Of a DNA stretch of 64,000 nt, positions 11,624 through 21,592 are shown in pieces; position 1 is the first letter of the stretch; every line of letters begins with the position of its first letter. The position numbers and the translations under genes were made by a program. Location: positions 609,757 to 673,756 of the forward strand of contig KE159617.1 of assembly GCA_000403335.2 (NCBI GenBank). The letters run 5' to 3'. The notes beneath the pieces are model-generated. The model was given only the letters and a program-made list of their open reading frames with translations. It did not search any database and was not told the origin of the DNA. The stretch is from Lachnospiraceae bacterium MD335 (GTDB lineage: Bacteria > Bacillota > Clostridia > Lachnospirales > Lachnospiraceae).

Positions 11624-12994
11624 ATGAAAACATCGAGAACTGCATTGAATCTGACGCAGGGCAGACCGCTGAAGCTGATTTTGCTTTTTGCAATACCTGT
11701 GTTTTTGGGAAATCTGTTTCAGATTTTATATAACCTTGTGGACACAAAGATCGTGGGAAGCATTTTGGGTGAGGAGGCGCTTGCGGCAGTGGGCGCCGTG
11801 TCGTCGCTTTATACGCTGCTCACAGGTTTTTTTAATGGATTAAGTCTTGGCTTTAGCGTCATTACCTCAAGATATTTTGGCAGCGGCGACGAGAAGGGAT
11901 TAAAGCAAAACGTTGCCGGCTCCGTTGTTTTAGGCTTTGGCACGGCAGCAGTGCTGATTGTGACAACCGCGCTGTTTTTAAAACCGATTTTGACGCTGCT
12001 TCATGTTCCTGACGGACAGCTTGACACGGCGTATACGTACATTTGTATTCTTGTGTGGGGCATGTTTGTCACGCTTGCTTATAATCTTTGTGCCAATATG
12101 CTCCGGGCAATCGGCGATTCGTTTACGCCGCTTGTTTTTCTTGTGATTGCGTCGGTCCTGAACGTCGTTTTGGACTATGCGTTTATCCTTGGACTGGATA
12201 TGGGGGTAAAAGGCGCGGCGGTGGCGACCGTGCTCTCACAGCTTTTTTCGGTGGCGCTGTGCCTGCTTCGCATCTATAAAGGGTTTCCGGTTCTTCATGT
12301 CACAAAATCCGATTTCGTGCTTACAAGGCGTCAGGTCTTTGCAATGTATGAGAGCGGGCTGTCGATGGGACTGATGTCAAGCCTTGTCAATTTCGGCACG
12401 CTGGTGCTCCAAAGCGGCATCAACCAGCTTGGCATGAATATTATTGTGGCGCATACTTCGGCGCGAAAAGTGTTTGAAATTTGGAACCTTCCGGTCAGTG
12501 TGCTTGGCGCCTCAATGGCGACATACTGCGGTCAGAATTACGGCGCTGGGAAATATGACAGAATCCGACAGGGAATGAAAAGCGCATTGCTTTTGGGTAC
12601 GGCATGGGTTGCGCTGGTTTTCGTGCTTGCACATACGATTTCGCCCTATCTGATTGCGTTTATGGCAAGTACGGAGAATGCGGAGATTATTTATTGGGGT
12701 GCGACGTACCTGAAAGTAGACATGTCCTTTTTGGTTCTTGTCGCATTTATTGTGATTTTGCGCAACTCCATGCAGGGTTTCGGCGACTATAAAACGCCGA
12801 TTTTTTCCAGTTTTATTGAGCTGGTGGGCAAACTTGTGTTTACCTTTGTGTTTGTGCGGCTGTTTGATTATTGGGGCATCATTTGGACAGAGCCGGTGAT
12901 TTGGTTTCTGATGGTGATACCGCTGATTATCATGACGCTTAGAAATCCGATTTTGGGATTCGGAGCCAATCGGATAAAGGGGGAATTGGAATGA
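11624..12994 (+). CDS. MATE-family multidrug/metabolite exporter
   Basis: This integral membrane protein of 456 residues has about 12 hydrophobic segments and MATE features: LTQGRPLKLILLFAIPVFLG at the N-terminus, the repeated QxxYNLVD and AxCGQNYGAG motifs, and two pseudo-symmetric halves. It should export cationic compounds driven by sodium or proton gradients; the substrate cannot be read from sequence. It forms a tandem pair with the next MATE gene, overlapping by 4 bases. Tandem MATE genes are common in Lachnospiraceae, and heterodimer function is not established. Confidence 0.9.
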   Translation: MKTSRTALNLTQGRPLKLILLFAIPVFLGNLFQILYNLVDTKIVGSILGEEALAAVGAVSSLYTLLTGFFNGLSLGFSVITSRYFGSGDEKGLKQNVAGSVVLGFGTAAVLIVTTALFLKPILTLLHVPDGQLDTAYTYICILVWGMFVTLAYNLCANMLRAIGDSFTPLVFLVIASVLNVVLDYAFILGLDMGVKGAAVATVLSQLFSVALCLLRIYKGFPVLHVTKSDFVLTRRQVFAMYESGLSMGLMSSLVNFGTLVLQSGINQLGMNIIVAHTSARKVFEIWNLPVSVLGASMATYCGQNYGAGKYDRIRQGMKSALLLGTAWVALVFVLAHTISPYLIAFMASTENAEIIYWGATYLKVDMSFLVLVAFIVILRNSMQGFGDYKTPIFSSFIELVGKLVFTFVFVRLFDYWGIIWTEPVIWFLMVIPLIIMTLRNPILGFGANRIKGELE

Positions 12995-14355
12995 AAAAGA
13001 AATATGAAATGGATATGTGCAGCGGCTCTGTATTCCAAAAGATGCTGCTTTTTGCAATCCCTTTAATGTGTTCCAGCATTTTACAGCTTTTGTTTAACGC
13101 GGCGGATATTGTGGTGGTAGGACGTTTTGCAGGGGATAACGCGCTTGCGGCAGTCGGTTCCAACAGCTCGCTTATTAACCTGCTCACGAATGTGTTTGTC
13201 GGGCTTTCGATTGGTACAAACGTGCTCACGGCGCAGTATTACGGCGCAAAAAAGGAAAAAGATTTAAAGGAAACGGTTCACACGTCCATCCTTTTGAGCG
13301 TTTGCAGTGGTGTCATTCTGACATTTGTCGGGATTGTCGGGGCAAAGCCGCTCTTGGAGCTGATGCAGGCGCCAAAGGAGGTTTTAAGCCTTGCGGTCAT
13401 TTATCTGCGGATTTATTTCCTCGGTATGACCTCGACAATGGTTTATAACTTCGGAAGCGCGATACTGCGTGCTGTCGGCGATACGCAAAGACCGCTCTAT
13501 TATTTGCTTGGAGCGGGAATTATCAACGTGATTTTGAATCTCTTTTTTGTGATTGCATGTCATATGGGTGTGGCAGGCGTAGCGGCAGCGACTGCAATTT
13601 CACAGACGATTTCCGCAGGACTTGTCGTGCGCTGCCTGATAAAAGAACAGGGCGGTATTCACTTGGATTTAAGAGCGCTTAGAATAAACCGTAAAAAGTT
13701 TGCAAGAATTGTACGGATTGGTTTGCCCGCGGGCTTTCAGGGGATGGTGTTTTCGCTCTCAAACGTGGTAATACAGTCGGCTGTCAACTCATTTGGTGCG
13801 GTGGCAGTTGCAGGAAACTCGGCTGCGGCAAATATTGAGGGCTTTGTTTACATGGCGATGAATGCGTTTTATCAGGCGACGATTTCGTTCACCAGTCAGA
13901 ATTACGGTGCGAGGGAACATAAACGCATTTACAGAATTCTTTTTGCAGGGGAACTTTATGTAATTATCACCGGAGTTTTGCTCGGAAATCTTGCGGTATT
14001 TTTCGGAAAGCCGCTTCTTGGCATTTACTCGCCGAGCGCGGATGTCGTCGCTGCCGGGCTGGGGCGTTTAAAGGTGATTTGCACACTTTACGCATTATGT
14101 GGTATGATGGATGTGCTTGTCGGTGCGCTTCGGGGCATCGGGTATTCTGTCGTTCCGATGGTCGTGTCACTGATTGGCGCCTGCGGGCTGCGTCTTTTAT
14201 GGATTGCAACGATTTTTCAAATACCGCAGTATCACAGTATGAGAGTGATTTATATTTCGTATCCGGTTACGTGGACCGTCACTTTTTTGGTGCATGCGTT
14301 AACGTTTTGGATTGTTTCCCGTAAGGCGTTGCGAGGTTTGGGCACACAGGTCTGA
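12991..14355 (+). CDS. MATE-family multidrug/metabolite exporter (second copy)
   Basis: This second MATE transporter, of 454 residues, shares motifs with its neighbour (MLLFAIPLMCSSILQLLFNAADIVVVGRFAG, here cited only as positions 15-45, and SFTSQNYGA in the second half). It has about 12 membrane segments. The ATG overlaps the previous stop by 4 bases, so both are made from one message. The two are paralogous but clearly divergent, not a recent duplication. A non-coding stretch of 147 bases follows. Confidence 0.9.
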   Translation: MKKKYEMDMCSGSVFQKMLLFAIPLMCSSILQLLFNAADIVVVGRFAGDNALAAVGSNSSLINLLTNVFVGLSIGTNVLTAQYYGAKKEKDLKETVHTSILLSVCSGVILTFVGIVGAKPLLELMQAPKEVLSLAVIYLRIYFLGMTSTMVYNFGSAILRAVGDTQRPLYYLLGAGIINVILNLFFVIACHMGVAGVAAATAISQTISAGLVVRCLIKEQGGIHLDLRALRINRKKFARIVRIGLPAGFQGMVFSLSNVVIQSAVNSFGAVAVAGNSAAANIEGFVYMAMNAFYQATISFTSQNYGAREHKRIYRILFAGELYVIITGVLLGNLAVFFGKPLLGIYSPSADVVAAGLGRLKVICTLYALCGMMDVLVGALRGIGYSVVPMVVSLIGACGLRLLWIATIFQIPQYHSMRVIYISYPVTWTVTFLVHALTFWIVSRKALRGLGTQV

Positions 14356-14502
14356 CTTGTTGGAAAATGCAGAAATATGTTGTAAAGACCATATAAGAAC
14401 CTATAATACCTTGGAAATCCTGTAATATGAGATAATACAAGAGGGAATGATACCTTTTATGTAACCAACTTGAACATTATTTCATATTAGAGGTGTAGGT
14501 AA

Positions 14503-14745
14503 GTGAAGACACAAGAGGCAGTAGTCTGCAGAATCAAGAAACTATGCGATGAAAGGAACCTGAAATTGTCACAACTGGCATACAATGCGGGAATGCCGGC
14601 ATCAACATTGAAAAACATTATGAACGGCAACAGCAAGAATACGGGAATTGTGACAATCAAAGTAATTTGTGACGGTTTGAATATACCGTTGGATGAGTTC
14701 TTTCACAGCGGATTATTTCGTGACCTTGAGCAGGAAATCGGGTGA
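14503..14745 (+). CDS. Cro/CI-type (XRE) helix-turn-helix regulator
   Basis: This DNA-binding protein of 80 residues is almost entirely an XRE domain (LSQLAYNAGMPASTLKNIMN, then TIKVICDGLNIPLDEFF). The start is GTG at 14503, with GAGGTG 7 bases upstream. It lies 20 bases before the LytTR response regulator and probably heads the regulator operon of the agr-like island. It may set basal expression of the locus, which is an inference from position. Confidence 0.85.
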   Translation: MKTQEAVVCRIKKLCDERNLKLSQLAYNAGMPASTLKNIMNGNSKNTGIVTIKVICDGLNIPLDEFFHSGLFRDLEQEIG

Positions 14746-14765
14746 CCTGGGGTATGCTGTAATAT

Positions 14766-15485
14766 ATGAAGAGAAATGTACTAATTGTAGAGGATAATCG
14801 GGTATGTATGGAGGCACTGGCGGAATTGACACGGAAATGTGATACTGTCGGTGCCGTTTTTTGCGTTGACAATCGGAAGGATGCATATACCTGTGCAATG
14901 GAAAATGAAATTGATTTGTTCTTGGTGGATATTATTTTGGACAGCGGGAATATACACGATATTTCAGGTTTCCTGTTTGTGAAAGAGCTAAGAGAAGTCA
15001 AGCGTTATGAATTTACGCCTGTTATTTTTATAACAAGCTTAGTTGATGAAGCAATGAGTGCATTTCATGATCTGCATTGTTTTGATTACATAGAAAAGCC
15101 ATTTGATTGGGAGAAAACAAGGAAAATTATAAAGACAGCGCTCAAGGCGCCGCTTTGTGACGAACGGGAATGCAGCGTGTTTTATTACAGAAAAGACGGT
15201 GTTCTTTACGCACTCAATATTGACAGGATGATTTATTTGGAAACAAGCTTTAGAAATGTTACGATTCATACGCTTGATGAGACAATTGAATTACCATATG
15301 CGTCGTTGAAAAATCTCATGAAAGACTTGCCGAGAAAGTATTTTATTCAGTGCAGCAGAAATGTTGTGATAAACAGGCTGTTTATTGAATATGTGGATAA
15401 GGTCAATCGTTTCATAAAGCTGCGGAACGGGGAAATGATTAAAATTGGCGGTAAGATGAAGAAGGGATTTTTGGAGGAATTATGA
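14766..15485 (+). CDS. LytTR-type response regulator (AgrA-like)
   Basis: This cytoplasmic response regulator has 239 residues. The receiver domain covers residues 1-120, with Asp55 as phospho-acceptor (LFLVDIIL) and acidic residues Glu9/Asp10. A LytTR DNA-binding domain covers about residues 135-239 (YRKDGVLYALNIDRMIYLE, then LPRKYFIQCSRNVVINRLFI). This architecture is that of AgrA/VirR/ComE. The gene overlaps the kinase gene by 4 bases, and the AgrD/AgrB genes converge on the pair, so it is expected to respond to the secreted peptide. Confidence 0.9.
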   Translation: MKRNVLIVEDNRVCMEALAELTRKCDTVGAVFCVDNRKDAYTCAMENEIDLFLVDIILDSGNIHDISGFLFVKELREVKRYEFTPVIFITSLVDEAMSAFHDLHCFDYIEKPFDWEKTRKIIKTALKAPLCDERECSVFYYRKDGVLYALNIDRMIYLETSFRNVTIHTLDETIELPYASLKNLMKDLPRKYFIQCSRNVVINRLFIEYVDKVNRFIKLRNGEMIKIGGKMKKGFLEEL

Positions 15486-16723
15486 TTGTTAAAGCGTTAG
15501 AAATATTTACGGAGTATATTAGCATTGTACTTTGTATACATAGAGCTGCGGGGAAACAGATTAAGATAAATTGGTATAGTTTATTGGATTATATCATTTA
15601 TATAATATTAATGTTTCTAGTAGAGAAAACTGTTTATGGTAAACTAATACTATTTGTATATTGGTTTATTTATCTGAAAATAAGAATAGCTGATACATGG
15701 AAACATGCAGTAAAATCATTTGTAATAACAATGTGTTTAATGCCTATGCTTCAAATATTGATTTATGCGACGATTAGTGAAGGCATGCAGAAGTTTGTTG
15801 ATATTTATTGCATAGCAATAAGTGCCAATATATTAATAATATTTCTTTTTCTTATTTGGAAAGAAAAATATTTGTCTGTAATAATGAATGCAGTTACTAA
15901 GTTTAGAAAAATTATTTTTCTTGTGTTACTAATATTTTTGTTTAAATGTATGTTTTCTTACTTTTCAACATTTAAAATGATAAATGCATATTTTATGGAT
16001 CAATTAGCAATTTGTTTTTTGATTATGGCTTTGATGTTTATTCTTTGGATTAATTCAGAAAATGAAAAAAAGCATAAAGCGGAAGAATTAAGAACATATC
16101 AATTATATACAAAGACCTTTGAGGATGCAGTTACCACAATCAGAATGAAACAACATGAGTTCGATAATCATATTAATGCAATTAAATGTATAGGTTATAC
16201 AATACATGATACAGAAAAGTTAATTGATGAACAGGATAAATATTGTGATAAGATTCTTCAAGATAATAAGTATAATAAAGTGCTTAAGTTAAATATATCT
16301 CCGATTCTAGTAGGATTTTTATATTCCAAATTTACAGCAGCGTCAGCACATGGAATAAATATTGAGTATGAGATACAAGATATTGAAATAATGAATGTTT
16401 CAATAAGCGATTTAGTTGAAATAATAGGTATTCTTTTTGATAATGCTGTTGAAGCGCTTGAGGAACAAGGAGATAAAGAAATGGAAGTCAGTCTGTTGCG
16501 ATCAGATAATACATTTACTGTTTCAATAGCAAATATAAGCTCATGGAAAACAAATAGTGAAATCGAAAAGTTTTTTGAATATGGATACAGTACAAAGGGG
16601 AAAGAACATGGAATCGGATTATATAGAGTAAATATGCTAATGAAAAAATATAAAGCATGCATACAAGTAGAAAATATTACAAAAAATGATTCGAATTATC
16701 TATGCTTTAAAGCAATATTTTAG
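15482..16723 (+). CDS. GHKL sensor histidine kinase (AgrC-like)
   Basis: This membrane kinase of 413 residues has about six hydrophobic segments in residues 1-195, then a cytoplasmic kinase. The phospho-accepting His225 is in MKQHEFDNHI, followed by the N-box FDNAVEALEE and the G-box KGKEHGIGLYRVN, the GHKL_5/AgrC arrangement without a classical HisKA helix. It should detect the cyclic peptide made from AgrD and phosphorylate the overlapping LytTR regulator. Base composition is markedly more AT-rich than the surrounding housekeeping genes, as is usual for fast-evolving receptor genes. Confidence 0.9.
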   Translation: MIVKALEIFTEYISIVLCIHRAAGKQIKINWYSLLDYIIYIILMFLVEKTVYGKLILFVYWFIYLKIRIADTWKHAVKSFVITMCLMPMLQILIYATISEGMQKFVDIYCIAISANILIIFLFLIWKEKYLSVIMNAVTKFRKIIFLVLLIFLFKCMFSYFSTFKMINAYFMDQLAICFLIMALMFILWINSENEKKHKAEELRTYQLYTKTFEDAVTTIRMKQHEFDNHINAIKCIGYTIHDTEKLIDEQDKYCDKILQDNKYNKVLKLNISPILVGFLYSKFTAASAHGINIEYEIQDIEIMNVSISDLVEIIGILFDNAVEALEEQGDKEMEVSLLRSDNTFTVSIANISSWKTNSEIEKFFEYGYSTKGKEHGIGLYRVNMLMKKYKACIQVENITKNDSNYLCFKAIF

Positions 16724-16741
16724 TTTAAGTAAGCCCGAAGG

Positions 16742-16784
16742 CTTTTATCGTATAGGCATTTTGCTTGTGCCTATACGATAAAAG
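16742..16784. terminator. Bidirectional terminator between agrC-like and agrD-like genes
   Basis: A perfect stem of 17 base pairs pairs 16742-16758 with 16768-16784 around a loop of 9 bases. CTTTT on the left arm and AAAAG on the right arm give a U-rich tail on both strands. It sits between two converging genes, which fits a shared intrinsic terminator. Confidence 0.85.
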
Positions 16785-16806
16785 GTATTGCATAAAATAA
16801 AGATTT

Positions 16807-16953
16807 TTACTTATCAAAAGGGTACACAGGTTCTCCGAAGAAAAAGGTACAAGGAACTGTATAAGGCAAATCAGCAGATAAAGCAATAAGAACTGGTACC
16901 AAAGCAGAAGCTAAAAGTAATTCTATTTTGTGAAGTGACAATTTCTTAAGCAT
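16807..16953 (-). CDS. agrD: AgrD-like cyclic peptide autoinducer precursor
   Basis: This 48-residue precursor is encoded directly after agrB on the same strand; its ATG lies inside the last codons of agrB (overlap of 8 bases, different frame). It has the AgrD layout: a basic amphipathic N-terminus (MLKKLSLHKI), a hydrophobic helix at about residues 11-27, a core TVPCTFFF and a Pro/acid tail GEPVYPFDK. By analogy with staphylococcal AgrD, Cys35 would form a thiolactone with Phe39, giving a five-residue ring CTFFF with a short N-terminal tail, and the tail from Gly40 would be removed by AgrB. The ring is unusually aromatic. The start is supported by AAAGGTGG upstream. Confidence 0.88.
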   Translation of the reverse strand: MLKKLSLHKIELLLASALVPVLIALSADLPYTVPCTFFFGEPVYPFDK

Positions 16954-17509
16954 TTCTTTCACCACCTTTCTTCATCATAAATGCTGCGATTAACTGCAAA
17001 GCGTGCAGTATAATCGTCCAGTAACCGGCGCCTGAAAGAGGATTGTCAAAGAACAGTACAATTAAAACTGCCTCATAACAAACAATACTCAGCGCCTTTT
17101 TGCGATGCTCCTCAAATTCCGGCCTGCTAAGGGCAGGTCTTGAGGGCGGCCGTATCGGTCCGATCCAATAAATAACAATTGCGCAGATTGTTAAAATAGG
17201 AACGACAACCGCAAGTTCAAGCCGTATCGGTGCAAGTACAACGACTGCGAGATACATGTAAACAAACGAGAATATGAGACAGGAAACATAATGCTTAAAG
17301 TGCAGCCCGCCAGATATGCGCCTTATCGGAAAAAAGATAAGGAAAGCATAGACAAAGCTGTTAAGCTTATGCATTGCCGCGAAAAATGCAATGAATAAAA
17401 TCAGTTTGCTGATGTCATACAATATGCATTTGATGCGGAATATTAAAAACGTTTGCTCCTTAGGACTTAAATTAACACGCTCCTTTGCCACATGTAAAAG
17501 CCTCTGCAA
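16946..17509 (-). CDS. agrB: AgrB-like peptide-processing membrane endopeptidase
   Basis: AgrB cleaves and cyclises AgrD at the membrane. The protein has 187 residues with several hydrophobic segments. The catalytic pair is visible in GGLHFKHYVSC: His70 and Cys77, with the seven-residue spacing of staphylococcal His77/Cys84. The start is TTG at 17509, with GGAGG 9 bases upstream; a later GTG is possible. It is convergent to the kinase/regulator genes and divergent from the second XRE gene, unlike the staphylococcal agrBDCA order. Confidence 0.92.
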   Translation of the reverse strand: MQRLLHVAKERVNLSPKEQTFLIFRIKCILYDISKLILFIAFFAAMHKLNSFVYAFLIFFPIRRISGGLHFKHYVSCLIFSFVYMYLAVVVLAPIRLELAVVVPILTICAIVIYWIGPIRPPSRPALSRPEFEEHRKKALSIVCYEAVLIVLFFDNPLSGAGYWTIILHALQLIAAFMMKKGGERNA

Positions 17510-17778
17510 TTCGCATCACCTCCACCCTATCAATTTATAACAACATTCGACATAATTCGAAAAAAATGGTTTATGGTTTGCAAAACCGTGCATTAAGTGC
17601 TCAAAAAAGTGGCTTTTTTTCATTTAAACGGGATTTCGCATACTTTAATACATTTTTCGGCAAAAGTTATGAAATATACATTATGTTAACGCCATATGCT
17701 GTATGGCCGCTATCAAGGCATATGACATGAGGAAAGTCATAAGACACAAAAAAACAAATTGAAGGGAGAGAATTTATA
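17510..17778. promoter_or_regulatory. Divergent control region of agrBD-like genes and XRE gene
   Basis: This spacer of 269 bases holds promoters for both directions. On the agrB side there is a direct repeat ATTCGA at 17545-17550 and 17555-17560 (10-base period) just upstream of a TATAAA-like -10 region, a possible activator site. On the other side a short palindrome GCCATA-TGCTG-TATGGC lies at 17691-17707, a possible XRE operator. Both are suggestions from sequence shape only. Confidence 0.4.
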
Positions 17779-18102
17779 ATGGTAAGTAGAATGTATTTAG
17801 AAGCGGGGGCAAGAATACAGGAACTTAGAATGACAAAAGGATACACAAGAGACTTTCTTGCTCAAAAAACAAATCTTTCAACAAAATTTCTATATGAGAT
17901 AGAGACGGGTAAGAAGGGCTTCACAGCGGAGGTACTCTATCGAATATCTAATGCACTGGATGTAAAATGTGATTATATACTTGTAGGGAAAAGCGGTGAG
18001 GAACCCTGCAACCTGTATATCAATAAGATTTTAAATAAGTACGACGAATACCAAAGGAAAAATGTGCTGCGAATATTAGAGCTGATTAACGAAATTTCAT
18101 AA
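17779..18102 (+). CDS. XRE-family transcriptional regulator
   Basis: This DNA-binding protein of 107 residues has a helix-turn-helix at about residues 12-66 (IQELRMTKGYTRDFLAQKT, then LSTKFLYEIETGKKGFTAEVLYRISNALDV in the next 30 residues). The C-terminal 35 residues are helical and may mediate dimerisation. A GGGAG site precedes the ATG. It is divergent from agrB, so it is a candidate repressor or activator of agrBD expression. It is unrelated in detail to the XRE gene at 14503. Confidence 0.87.
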   Translation: MVSRMYLEAGARIQELRMTKGYTRDFLAQKTNLSTKFLYEIETGKKGFTAEVLYRISNALDVKCDYILVGKSGEEPCNLYINKILNKYDEYQRKNVLRILELINEIS

Positions 18103-18210
18103 ACTTTTTTCACAAATATATAAGATTTACTTGAAATCAGAACAAATGTATGCTAACATATAATCGAACAGAAGTTTTGGGAGGATGTCCGGTTATCAAA
18201 GGAGCGCATT

Positions 18211-19620
18211 ATGGAACAGATTTCGGGTGATTTGGCGCTGCATTGTGCCAATGGAAAAGAGGAAATGAAGATCGAGCTGTATTCGGCAGCAAGAAAAACA
18301 ATTATGGATAAGCTTGAAATCCTGACGGACGCGGCCAAGTATGATGTGGCGTGCACAAGCTCAGGCATTGACAGAAAAGGAAACGGCCGTGACATGGGAA
18401 ACTGTATCGCGGCGGGCATTTGTCATAGCTTTTCGTCAGACGGCAGATGTATTTCCTTATTAAAGATTTTAATGTCAAACGAATGTGTTTACGATTGTAA
18501 ATACTGTGTCAACCGCAGGAGCAATGATGTGCCGCGCGCCACATTTACTCCGGATGAGATTTGCGAGCTTACTATGAATTTCTACAAACGCAATTATATA
18601 GAAGGACTTTTTCTAAGTTCCGGCATTATCAACAACCCTACGGATACGATGGAGCGTATTTATGAGACCCTATACAAGCTTCGGAATGTATATCGTTTTC
18701 GCGGATATGTTCATGTGAAGGGAATACCGGGGGCAGACCCTGTGATTATTCAGCAGACTGGTTTTTTGGCGGACCGTATGAGCGTCAATTTGGAGCTTCC
18801 GACAGCGGAGGGATTGGAAAAACTTGCACCGAATAAGCATCGTAAGAGTATCTTAAAACCCATGCGTCAGATTCAAAACGGTATCGCGCAGGGGAAGCAG
18901 GAGCTGGCGCTTTACAAGAGCGCGCCGCAGTTTGTGCCGGCAGGGCAGTCTACACAGATGATTATCGGAGCGACGCCTGAGAGTGATTACCAGATTATGT
19001 CGGTGGCAGAGAGCCTGTATGACAAATTTGCACTAAAACGGGTTTTCTATTCTGCGTATGTGGGTGTGAACGAGGATTGGGCGCTTCCTGCGGTAACAAC
19101 GGCATCGCCTCTTCTTCGTGAACACAGGCTTTATCAGGCAGACTGGCTGCTTCGGTACTACAGTTTTCGCGTAAGCGAACTTTTAAACGAGAAGCATCAA
19201 AATTTCAATATTCTTTTAGACCCCAAGTGTGATTGGGCGCTTCGTCATTTGGAGCAGTTTCCGGTTGAAATCAATAGGGCGGAGTACACGATGCTTTTGC
19301 GCGTGCCGGGGATTGGCGTAAAGAGCGCACAGCGCATCTGCAAGGCGAGGAGAAGCGGTTCTCTTGGATTTGACAGCTTGAAGAAAATCGGAGTGGTACT
19401 CAAAAGAGCATTGTATTTTATTACCTGCAACGGAAAAATGATGTACAATACCAAGATAGAAGAGGATTATATCACAAGAAATCTATTGTCGGAGCATGAG
19501 AAGCTGCCGTTTGATAAGGATGGCATGACCTATAAGCAGTTATCGCTGTTTGACGACGCGGCGGAGAACGCCAGTCTGTTCGGCATGACGCAGGAAGGGA
19601 ACGTGAATGCATATGTATGA
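18211..19620 (+). CDS. Radical SAM DNA modification/repair protein linked to UDG-like partner
   Basis: This radical SAM enzyme of 469 residues has the 4Fe-4S motif CVYDCKYC at Cys92/Cys96/Cys99. Residues near 360 hold a helix-hairpin-helix (LLRVPGIGVKSAQRICKAR), which indicates DNA binding. This matches the family described as putative DNA modification/repair radical SAM protein, usually paired with a UDG-like partner, which is the next gene here. The reaction is not established for the family. An AAAGGAG site precedes the ATG, and the 3' end overlaps the partner gene by 14 bases. Confidence 0.88.
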   Translation: MEQISGDLALHCANGKEEMKIELYSAARKTIMDKLEILTDAAKYDVACTSSGIDRKGNGRDMGNCIAAGICHSFSSDGRCISLLKILMSNECVYDCKYCVNRRSNDVPRATFTPDEICELTMNFYKRNYIEGLFLSSGIINNPTDTMERIYETLYKLRNVYRFRGYVHVKGIPGADPVIIQQTGFLADRMSVNLELPTAEGLEKLAPNKHRKSILKPMRQIQNGIAQGKQELALYKSAPQFVPAGQSTQMIIGATPESDYQIMSVAESLYDKFALKRVFYSAYVGVNEDWALPAVTTASPLLREHRLYQADWLLRYYSFRVSELLNEKHQNFNILLDPKCDWALRHLEQFPVEINRAEYTMLLRVPGIGVKSAQRICKARRSGSLGFDSLKKIGVVLKRALYFITCNGKMMYNTKIEEDYITRNLLSEHEKLPFDKDGMTYKQLSLFDDAAENASLFGMTQEGNVNAYV

Positions 19621-20401
19621 GTACGTATTGTTGTGCGAGGACAGCATGGAGGGAATTTTAAGCGGCGTCTATGAGGCATACCGTTTTAAGAAGGAAACGG
19701 GGATAGAGAGCCACGATCAGATTCATTTAGCGCTGCAGGTTCCCGATACCTATCGCTTTTTTACGGAATACAGAACGGTTGATACCGACTATGAGAATGC
19801 GGATAAAGTGATTGCGACCATTCGCGGCAGACTTGGCGAAGAAGTTTATTACCGCCTGTGTTTGGCAATGGTATCCTGCTTTCCTGAGAAGGCGGACGCG
19901 GTGTACCATACAATCGTGCTTGCGCTTAGGGAAAATGACAGGATGATTATGGACAGGCTCGGGGAGGAGTGGGTGCAGCGCACATTTCGGTATGCGCGGG
20001 CATCATCAAATGAATTAGGGCATATGATAGAGTTCACGCGGTTTGCGGAGCTTGAGGGAGGCGTGCTCTATGCGAAAATCAATGTAAGACATCATATTCT
20101 GCCGTTTCTGATGCCGCATTTTGCCGACAGGCTTCCTTCTGAGAATTTTATGATTTATGACGAGGGAACGGATGTGTACGGTCTTCATCCAATGCGTCAG
20201 CAGTGGTATTTGGTTCAGGGGATGGAGATTGATCAGGACATGCTGAAACAGACAGCGGCGGAGGAAGATTATCAGGAGCTTTTTAAACGGTTCTGTAAGA
20301 CTATTGCAATTGAGTCAAGAACGAATAAAAGACTCCAAACTGGTTTCCTTCCGCTGCGTTTTCGGCCAAATATGACGGAATTTCAGACATCGCAGGATTG
20401 A
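19607..20401 (+). CDS. TIGR03915-type DNA metabolism protein, partner of the radical SAM enzyme
   Basis: This protein of 264 residues belongs to the family found next to the radical SAM repair protein (MYEYVLLCEDSMEGILSGVYEAY at the start, residues 3-25). It is described as a probable DNA metabolism protein linked to uracil-DNA glycosylase-type enzymes, with a DUF4130 region. FMIYDEGTDVYGLHPMRQQW is a conserved block. No catalytic residues can be assigned. The start overlaps the previous gene by 14 bases, which supports a functional pair. Confidence 0.82.
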   Translation: MHMYEYVLLCEDSMEGILSGVYEAYRFKKETGIESHDQIHLALQVPDTYRFFTEYRTVDTDYENADKVIATIRGRLGEEVYYRLCLAMVSCFPEKADAVYHTIVLALRENDRMIMDRLGEEWVQRTFRYARASSNELGHMIEFTRFAELEGGVLYAKINVRHHILPFLMPHFADRLPSENFMIYDEGTDVYGLHPMRQQWYLVQGMEIDQDMLKQTAAEEDYQELFKRFCKTIAIESRTNKRLQTGFLPLRFRPNMTEFQTSQD

Positions 20402-20403
20402 CA

Positions 20404-20576
20404 GTACACTAGTGTACCGACTCGTTCATATTCAGGCAAACCTCCTTGCCTATTTCCCTGATAGCACTACTTCCCAAGCCTCGCCGTAGCCACCGCTACG
20501 CCTGCGTTTGTAAAGCAGCACTCTCAGGAAAATATTCTGTGGAGTTTTACCAGATATGAAGCGGTTAGTACACTAG
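20404..20576. repeat. 173-base structured element bounded by GTACACTAG repeats
   Basis: The nine bases GTACACTAG occur at 20404-20412 and again at 20568-20576. The left copy is part of the palindrome GTACACTAGTGTAC. The outer 25-30 bases also form an imperfect inverted repeat (CTAGTGTAC..TTCATATTCAG against CAGATATGAA..GTACACTAG). Inside are smaller hairpins, including CGTAGC-CAC-CGCTACG and a CCTGA/TCAGG closing pair. The element fills the gap between two convergent genes and supplies the lacI-type stop codon. It could be a small non-autonomous mobile repeat, a structured RNA or a complex terminator; I do not recognise a known RNA family. Confidence 0.55.
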
Positions 20577-21592
20577 ATGTTTTCTAAAATTCGAATATCC
20601 ACGGCGGTGTAGTAATATTCGTCTGCGGGTTTTTCGCCTGTGGTAAGGTATGTGAAAAGAATATCAAGCGGTTTTTTCCCCTGCGTGTGGGGCTGTTGGC
20701 AGATAACGGCAGACAATACGTTATCGCGCAGAAACTGCTCTGTCGTTTCCGCCTTATCATAGGCGATAATTTTAAGCCTGTTGCCGAGTCTCCTGGAACA
20801 GACTGCGCGGCAGCCGCCATAGACGCCGCCTGCTGCAAAAAACAGGGCGTTAATTTCCGGGTGCGTGTTTAACAAAGCTAATGTCTTTTCATAGCTTTCG
20901 ATTTCATCATCGTGCGTTTCCACGACAGAAACAATATGGATACGGTCGGAGACGGGGGCAAGCGTGCTTGAGAAGCCTGCGATTCGCTCCGTATGGCATA
21001 ATATGTCGGAGGAGCCGGTTAAGATGCCGACAAAGACTTCGCTGCTTGTCATAAGCCGCAGAAGTCCCGCAGCCGTTGCGCCGCTTTTGGTATAGTGGCT
21101 TCCGACGTAGGCGAGGCGTTTGGCGTTTTCAATATCGGTATTTAACGTGACTACAGGTATTCCCTGCTCAAACAATTCGTTGATGCGCAGGCGGATACGA
21201 TTGTCGTTGCAGGGCGCAAGGGCGATGCCGTTGACGTCTGCGTCAACAAGTTCATTGATTGCCTTTAGCTGCGCCTCGGTGTTGATGGGAATCTGTTTTA
21301 CAAGCACGGAGCAGTTATATTCGGAAAGCTCCTCTGCTTTACTGTTAATCCCGTCGAGCACGTCGGAGAAAAACGGATTTTCTGCCGAAAAGATGATAAC
21401 ACCAAGTTTCAGCCTTTTTTTGGAGGCAGCGAGCACAAGACCGGCTTTATTTGGTCTGTAGTCAAGAGCCTTTGCAATTTCTTCTATTTTCTTTGCAGTG
21501 TTTGCATTGACAGAACCGCGGTTGTTGAGCACACGGTCAACCGTTCCGCGGGATACGCCGGCAAGCGCCGCGATTTCTTTGATCGTAGCCAT
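20573..21592 (-). CDS. LacI-family transcriptional regulator with sugar-binding domain
   Basis: This repressor of 339 residues has an N-terminal helix-turn-helix (MATIKEIAALAGVSRGTVDR, then VLNNRG and the hinge) and a periplasmic-binding-protein-like effector domain (LGVIIFSAENPFFSDVLDGI). The GTVDR variant is typical of ribose/xylose-type members. The start at 21592 is chosen because the domain begins there, with GAAGG upstream; the frame is open for another 33 residues. It is divergent from the fucose/arabinose-isomerase-family gene and probably controls it. Confidence 0.9.
   Translation of the reverse strand: MATIKEIAALAGVSRGTVDRVLNNRGSVNANTAKKIEEIAKALDYRPNKAGLVLAASKKRLKLGVIIFSAENPFFSDVLDGINSKAEELSEYNCSVLVKQIPINTEAQLKAINELVDADVNGIALAPCNDNRIRLRINELFEQGIPVVTLNTDIENAKRLAYVGSHYTKSGATAAGLLRLMTSSEVFVGILTGSSDILCHTERIAGFSSTLAPVSDRIHIVSVVETHDDEIESYEKTLALLNTHPEINALFFAAGGVYGGCRAVCSRRLGNRLKIIAYDKAETTEQFLRDNVLSAVICQQPHTQGKKPLDILFTYLTTGEKPADEYYYTAVDIRILENI

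Follow-up and report, generated by a model that had tools for sequence, protein, structure and literature searches.

The island at positions 14503-18102 of the window, which is the whole 64,000-nt stretch of Lachnospiraceae bacterium MD335 DNA analyzed here, is very probably a complete peptide quorum-sensing locus of the agr type, belonging to a branch in which sender and receiver genes lie on opposed strands. Open reading frame (ORF) reading placed agrA, agrC, agrD and agrB in the island, with an XRE gene at either end. The receiver genes agrA and agrC were on the plus strand and the sender genes agrD and agrB on the minus strand, and all island reading frames in the window were intact. A preliminary description had proposed an Agr-type system; its ORF positions were all borne out by an ORF check, and its reading is supported by the matches of AgrB, AgrC and AgrA together with the conserved AgrD; relatives keep the gene set as well. 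Agr systems are known, as are agrBD and agrCA in separate operons; what is new here is an opposed-strand variant with a complete gene set. The island thus becomes a recognisable agr branch with its own gene order, a GE-x-x-x-P tail and a switching ring residue.

Proteins of the island and identity of AgrD

The agrB gene (16946-17509, minus strand, TTG start) encodes a membrane peptidase that matched PF04647 with an E value of 2.9e-27 (95.6 bits, cut-off 23) and was the sole PF04647 match of the genome at E 0.001. The activity of Staphylococcus aureus AgrB is reported to depend on R70, G75, H77 and C84 (PMC10196373). The window AgrB carries R63, G68, H70 and C77 at the same spacing, and these four residues were invariant across 16 aligned AgrBs, so the His70/Cys77 pair of the preliminary description was found as described. 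No solved-structure relative of AgrB was obtained up to E 1.

The agrC gene (15482-16723, plus strand) encodes a protein of the AgrC kind, a polytopic sensor joined to a GHKL kinase. Six hydrophobic segments precede the kinase part, which has its H-box histidine at His225 and matched HATPase_c_5 (E 9.2e-14). The only solved chains matched at E 0.01 were those of S. aureus AgrC, 6e52 (E 9.3e-13) and 4bxi. The staphylococcal AgrC model of NCBIfam aligned over residues 13-388 and so covered the sensor part (60.6 bits, cut-off 500). The agrA gene (14766-15485, plus strand) encodes a response regulator made of a receiver (Response_reg, E 2.1e-13) and a LytTR DNA-binding domain (E 2.4e-12); solved structures matched AgrA in its receiver part alone.

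The agrD gene (16807-16953, minus strand) encodes a 48-residue signal precursor and overlaps the end of agrB by 8 nt, with AAAGGTGGTG preceding its ATG. The peptide stands beside agrB and has an amphipathic/hydrophobic leader, with the hydrophobic segment at residues 12-30, and, five residues ahead of an acidic tail that includes Pro, the Cys/Ser position. Cys35, the core PCTFFF and the tail GEPVYP were all present, as the preliminary description had claimed.

Several results weigh against the agr assignment, and the poorer comparisons of the promoter boxes given with the control region below belong with them. The NCBIfam AgrB-like model gave the window AgrB 35.6 bits, far below its equivalog cut-off, and the NCBIfam AgrA model gave AgrA 29 bits against a cut-off of 400. 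For AgrC, the best NCBIfam model was DcuS/MalK (82.9 bits, cut-off 520), which covered residues 217-399 and thus the kinase part only; MalK came next (64.1 bits), and staphylococcal AgrC was third. The window AgrD matched no Pfam or NCBIfam AgrD model. Nor did the genus AgrDs of loci L038, L040 and L046, scanned singly, match TIGR04223 (quorum_AgrD).

The preliminary description had looked to an AgrD family match. A direct one was ruled out by the empty Pfam and NCBIfam results, and the window peptide also gave no match to TIGR04223, whose curated cut-off is 19 bits. The window-genus AgrDs scanned therefore escape curated models. No Pfam AgrD model was named for any of the 31 branch peptides or eight co-directional peptides, while TIGR04223 matched 16 of the 31 branch AgrDs at E 0.1 or better and seven of the eight co-directional ones. 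Among AgrDs of other genera scanned singly, its cut-off was exceeded in L047, L049, L050, L081, L085 and L089, and L048 fell short. In profile-profile comparison, the genus AgrDs matched the other-genus set with 96.3% probability (E 1.8e-9, 23 columns) and the eight co-directional AgrDs with 69.3% (E 4.3e-5, 14 columns). Because the genus profile links to other-genus AgrDs that match TIGR04223, the window peptide is identified as an AgrD through a chain of profile links and matches no model directly.

The conservation of AgrD was also compared. By tblastn at E 1e-3, the window AgrD had matches of 36-75% identity in 8 of the 14 genus loci, the match in L034 of genome G031 being split in two pieces. 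No match at this threshold was obtained in L038, L041, L043, L044, L045 and L046; an AgrD-like frame was read by eye in L038, L041, L043 and L046, and L044 and L045 were cut by contig ends. The two pieces in G031 were considered as a possible second agrD, which was dropped, since they are one and the same peptide piece read on either side of a run of Ns inside agrD (L034:1301-1587), which looks like an assembly gap. A profile built from 11 aligned genus AgrDs matched 10 of 397 genomes in the family sample, that of the window included, seven of the ten at E above 1e-4.

By the Nei-Gojobori method, dN and dS were 0.149 and 0.69 between the window AgrD and that of G011, 0.20 and 2.5 between the window and G035, and 0.041 and 0.88 between the AgrDs of the Ser-type relatives G015 and G021. 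All three pairs compared show purifying selection on AgrD. In the tail, G40, E41 and P45 were invariant in all 31 aligned branch AgrDs. Glu41, two residues past the ring, occupies the place of E34 of S. aureus AgrD, for which D33 and E34 are reported to matter for cleavage, with E34 essential (PMC10196373).

The predicted signal and its ring residue

By analogy with known agr systems, AgrB would cut AgrD after Phe39, before Gly40-Glu41, and the Cys35 thiol would be closed on Phe39, giving a five-residue CTFFF thiolactone with an N-terminal tail, which a further, putative protease would then set free. Outside the cell, the peptide would bind the six-helix sensor of AgrC, AgrC would phosphorylate AgrA, and phosphorylated AgrA would act via its LytTR domain. 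The predicted signal is a cyclic Cys-Thr-Phe-Phe-Phe, cut before GEPVYP, whose codons were placed at 16837-16851 on the minus strand from sequence reading and the AgrD alignments.

Cys stood five residues before the Gly in 17 and Ser in 14 of the 31 aligned branch AgrDs, a count that was not blind, as the AgrD pick required Cys, Ser, Thr or Val at the ring position. L092, with Val at this position and Ser one residue earlier, was left out of the 31, and L091 showed no AgrD. The preliminary description had expected both Cys35 and an EPxxP tail to be conserved; the tail residues G40, E41 and P45 were, and the cysteine was so in little more than half of the peptides. On the AgrB tree of the branch (44 rows), 39 rows were labelled with a ring residue, namely 20 Cys, 16 Ser and 3 Thr, one Ser row being a duplicate. 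The best tree needed eight changes of ring residue, or seven when only Cys and Ser were counted; the starred branches alone force at least four changes for Cys and five for Ser, each taken singly. The ring residue, as read from these sequences, switches between Cys and Ser within the branch, which predicts that thiolactone signals give way to lactones there and the reverse. A lactone is reported for S. pseudintermedius and Enterococcus faecalis, where Ser replaces Cys (PMC12312760). The branch is also a test bed for how AgrB accepts Cys or Ser. In a divergent sub-branch, L095, L096 and L098 had Thr at the ring position (GTIGIIGE, GTFGLVGE and ATTGWNGE) and would need a Thr lactone.

A ring other than CTFFF, arising if AgrB cuts elsewhere or closes six residues as in Clostridium acetobutylicum, is quite unlikely. 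Six-residue clostridial rings are described (PMC10301443), the AgrD of G004 has Cys at two neighbouring positions, and Cys in L080 and Ser in L092 stand six residues before the tail. However, Cys or Ser was exactly five residues before Gly-Glu in 31 of 31 peptides, within the limits of the pick noted above, and the pentapeptide rings reported for S. aureus and Listeria agree with the five-residue prediction (PMC12312760, PMC4916163).

The last three ring residues were FFF in 10 of the 11 aligned genus AgrDs. The ring had been called unusually aromatic, which did not hold, since Phe-rich rings are usual in the genus and S. hyicus has KINP-[CTVFF] (PMC12312760). Among the known autoinducing peptides (AIPs) listed in the same source, that of L. 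monocytogenes is A[CFMFV]; the latter resembles the predicted signal in being a Phe-rich pentapeptide thiolactone (PMC4916163), although its locus is agrBDCA (PMC12312760). The rings of S. hyicus and of S. pseudintermedius, the lactone RIPT[STGFF], are near the predicted one and show that Ser can replace Cys, but the loci of both species are again agrBDCA (PMC12312760). Predicted AIPs are reported to be identical in six named Listeria species (PMC4916163), and two staphylococci to be less promiscuous in their quorum sensing than L. monocytogenes (PMC11297923). The near-constant ring core across species predicts cross-talk among relatives, not private codes.

The FFF core in 10 of 11 genus AgrDs would also be easier to explain by a shared target than by a private code, and a MATE transporter gene adjoins the island. 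Both points would fit an agrDB peptide that acts mainly on other cells, as a small ribosomally synthesized and post-translationally modified antimicrobial or interference peptide, with a two-component system that regulates and does not sense. This alternative is very unlikely, as no immunity or modification gene was recognisable among the six island genes and AgrC aligned with the staphylococcal AgrC model through the sensor part. Moreover, sender and receiver genes were kept together in four loci of other families, with no MATE relative found in the stretches covered there.

Convergent gene order and the agrC-agrD gap

The preliminary description had contrasted the convergent layout with that of staphylococci. 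In S. aureus, agrBDCA is reported to form one transcript with RNAIII divergent (PMC4227749, PMC12312760), whereas in the window agrAC and agrDB are opposed and an XRE gene takes the divergent position; the island is therefore not a staphylococcal operon with co-directional genes and divergent RNAIII, and Rfam gave no match at all in 12000-21000 up to E 1, so none to an RNAIII-like RNA. The two systems are alike in the AgrB catalytic residues, the AgrC kinase module, the LytTR regulator, the AgrD plan (leader, five-residue ring, acidic tail) and perhaps the paired boxes in the divergent promoter region. C. acetobutylicum agrBD and agrCA are alike in having signal and sensor genes in separate operons and unlike in their six-residue ring (PMC10301443). 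No mention of a convergent agr layout was found among the titles and abstract openings listed by searches of the open-licence literature, subscription journals lying outside that scope. A set of 199 rumen genomes is reported to carry agrA/agrB genes (PMC10838665).

For 85 rows, the kinase closest to AgrB was scored, and a tree was built from 83 after two contig-end rows were dropped; L084 and L132 are the same locus counted twice. The 83 rows comprised 37 convergent, 28 co-directional, 6 divergent and 1 split arrangement, with no kinase in reach in 11. One branch (support 99/91) split the tree into 44 and 39 rows. The side of 44 held all 37 convergent rows, 4 divergent, 2 without kinase, 1 split and no co-directional row, and the side of 39 held the 28 co-directional rows, 9 without kinase, 2 divergent and no convergent row. 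Many end branches are long, mostly on the co-directional side, and such rows call for caution.

An extra sample of 40 regions from a Pfam-based family search gave 41 AgrBs, of which 29 were co-directional, 5 divergent, 4 without kinase and 3 convergent. The branch profile exceeded 100 bits in only four of them (113-218 bits), the three convergent ones and one with a contig end right after agrB, and the remaining 37 scored 69 or less. This sample was not blind, as three of the top four (G090, G099 and G216) had been picked with knowledge of their AgrD-profile matches. The convergent order was seen in several families of the order, and few of the AgrBs read from the family of the window had it. 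It characterises an AgrB branch as a whole and not this island in particular, so the convergence described for the window stands and its peculiarity does not.

Two genomes, G597 and G145 (L132, L212), have a convergent-branch agr locus beside a co-directional one. In one sub-branch (L099, L100, L101, L103 and L121), agrD shares the strand of the kinase gene and is placed between agrC and the facing agrB, and the cores ACFIIC, ACFLLC, ACFLLA, ACFLFA and ACFIFL, respectively, are followed by SQPKCP. An unannotated 4.7-kb phage-collection record, MT839371.1, holds an AgrB-like stretch with 35% identity over residues 24-125 (55% of AgrB).

The distance between the agrC and agrD stop codons was measured in those convergent loci where agrD and agrB share a strand. 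The window has a gap of 83 nt, and across 13 genus loci, the window included, the range was 11-399 nt. Outside the genus the gap was -18 to +4 nt in 17 of 18 loci and 36 nt in one, with agrC and agrD overlapping in 11 of the 18. Such spacing leaves no room for a terminator between the two genes, and therefore the 3′ ends of the agrC and agrD transcripts should be antisense to each other outside the genus.

A terminator shared by the two transcription units had been proposed for the window. A perfect 17-bp inverted repeat (16742-16784, strand-neutral) lies between both 3′ ends as a candidate hairpin and folds with z scores of -5.3 and -5.7 on the two strands. Its 5′ arm starts with CTTTT and its 3′ arm ends with AAAAG, no U-tract follows on either strand, and a terminator scan of the window gap found none. 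The arms are mostly kept in G011 and G031. A dispersed repeat was rejected, the exact pattern occurring once in the genome. Beside the repeat, a short stem, AAGCC-CGAA-GGCTT (16731-16744), is followed by TT (to 16746) and could serve as an agrAC terminator. In two relatives, G027 and G035, the scan did place a terminator-like hairpin between the two genes, on the agrD strand, and in G027, G004 and G035 the gap hairpin has an A-run before its stem and a T-run behind it, the pattern expected of a two-way terminator. The shared terminator is thus unclear in the window and plausible in close relatives.

A more inclusive reading would make agrC and agrD antisense partners outside the genus, with a hairpin or terminator intervening in the window's group, let AgrA drive a divergent pair of promoters like P2 and P3 with an XRE protein replacing RNAIII as effector, and include the repeated Cys/Ser exchange. 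Transcripts pairing at their 3′ ends would make signal production and perception restrain each other, and the exchange would change the signal chemistry while a hydrophobic, mostly aromatic ring face is kept. We regard this combination as unlikely, the more so as terminator-like hairpins occur in close relatives. The branch could nonetheless serve as a test bed for whether signal output and sensing are coupled through antisense transcription of tail-to-tail genes.

Control region, XRE genes and site occupancy

In S. aureus, the divergent promoters P2 and P3 are reported to be preceded by direct repeats that AgrA binds (PMC4227749). In the gap between agrB and xre2, the window has an inverted pair of 24-nt arms (17562-17585 and 17634-17657) that are 75% complementary. 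The agrB-side box occupies 17562-17586 on the minus strand, and the xre2-side box, TTTCGCATACTTTAATACATTTTTCG, occupies 17634-17659 on the plus strand with two TTTC halves 21 bp apart. The best 26-mers of the agrB strand and the xre2 strand were scored against each other and against 20 shuffles per locus. The pair clearly beat the shuffles in G011 (22/26, shuffle maximum 17) and G031 (21/26, maximum 18), was barely above them in G035 (18 versus 17), tied the maximum in the window (19 and 19) and G027 (17 and 17), and failed in G004 (16 versus 20), as it did in each of the seven more distant loci compared. The inverted pair appears credible in the closest species only, and weakly recalls P2 and P3. 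From the DNA pattern, AgrA might bind the pair and drive the signal operon and xre2, and XRE2 might stand where staphylococci have RNAIII. A genome search with the xre2-side box gave one other match (2 mismatches) and the reversed control two, and the attempt to define an AgrA regulon in this way was dropped.

The flanking XRE regulators are two different proteins, as had been described. The first gene of the xre1-agrA-agrC run, xre1 (14503-14745, plus strand, GTG start), encodes an 80-residue Cro/C1-type HTH protein (HTH_26, E 4.1e-9), and xre2 (17779-18102, plus strand), divergent from agrB, encodes a 107-residue XRE-family regulator (HTH_3, E 3.7e-10). The xre1 gene was upstream of agrA in 7 of the 11 genus loci whose stretch includes agrA, and was 90-95% identical in L033, L035, L036 and L037. 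AgrC in these four loci was only 62-67% identical, far below xre1, as if xre1 were constrained by something other than the signal. Of the 14 genus loci, 13 had xre2 adjoining agrB in divergent orientation, L043 with roughly 0.9 kb between the two. In the four loci of other families xre2 was never beside agrB, but it adjoins agrB divergently in G632, of another genus.

The left neighbour of the island is the MATE transporter gene and the right neighbour a radical-SAM (rSAM) gene, which was found in 35 of 38 genus genomes. Of 30 rSAM loci read, six had xre2-agrB alongside (window included), one had a lone xre1-agrA and 23 had neither within the stretch. The island is present or absent at the rSAM site among close relatives. 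A mobile origin was considered and rejected, no AgrB relative being confirmed in viral contigs or plasmids. The lone pair, in G030 (L177:4152-5146), lies between the MATE and rSAM genes with no kinase or agrB match there; the other agr genes of G030 are elsewhere (L038), in the order agrA, agrDB, agrC.

Patchy presence, with the AgrD profile matching 12 of 38 genus genomes (window genome counted in), and the xre1-agrA retained at the site in G030 would suit a decaying remnant. That the window locus is such a remnant is extremely improbable, as its reading frames are whole, its catalytic residues intact and its AgrD under purifying selection, and we retain the complete agr-type locus as our reading. 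The adjoining radical-SAM gene (18211-19620) encodes a DNA modification/repair protein that matched TIGR03916 with 699 bits.

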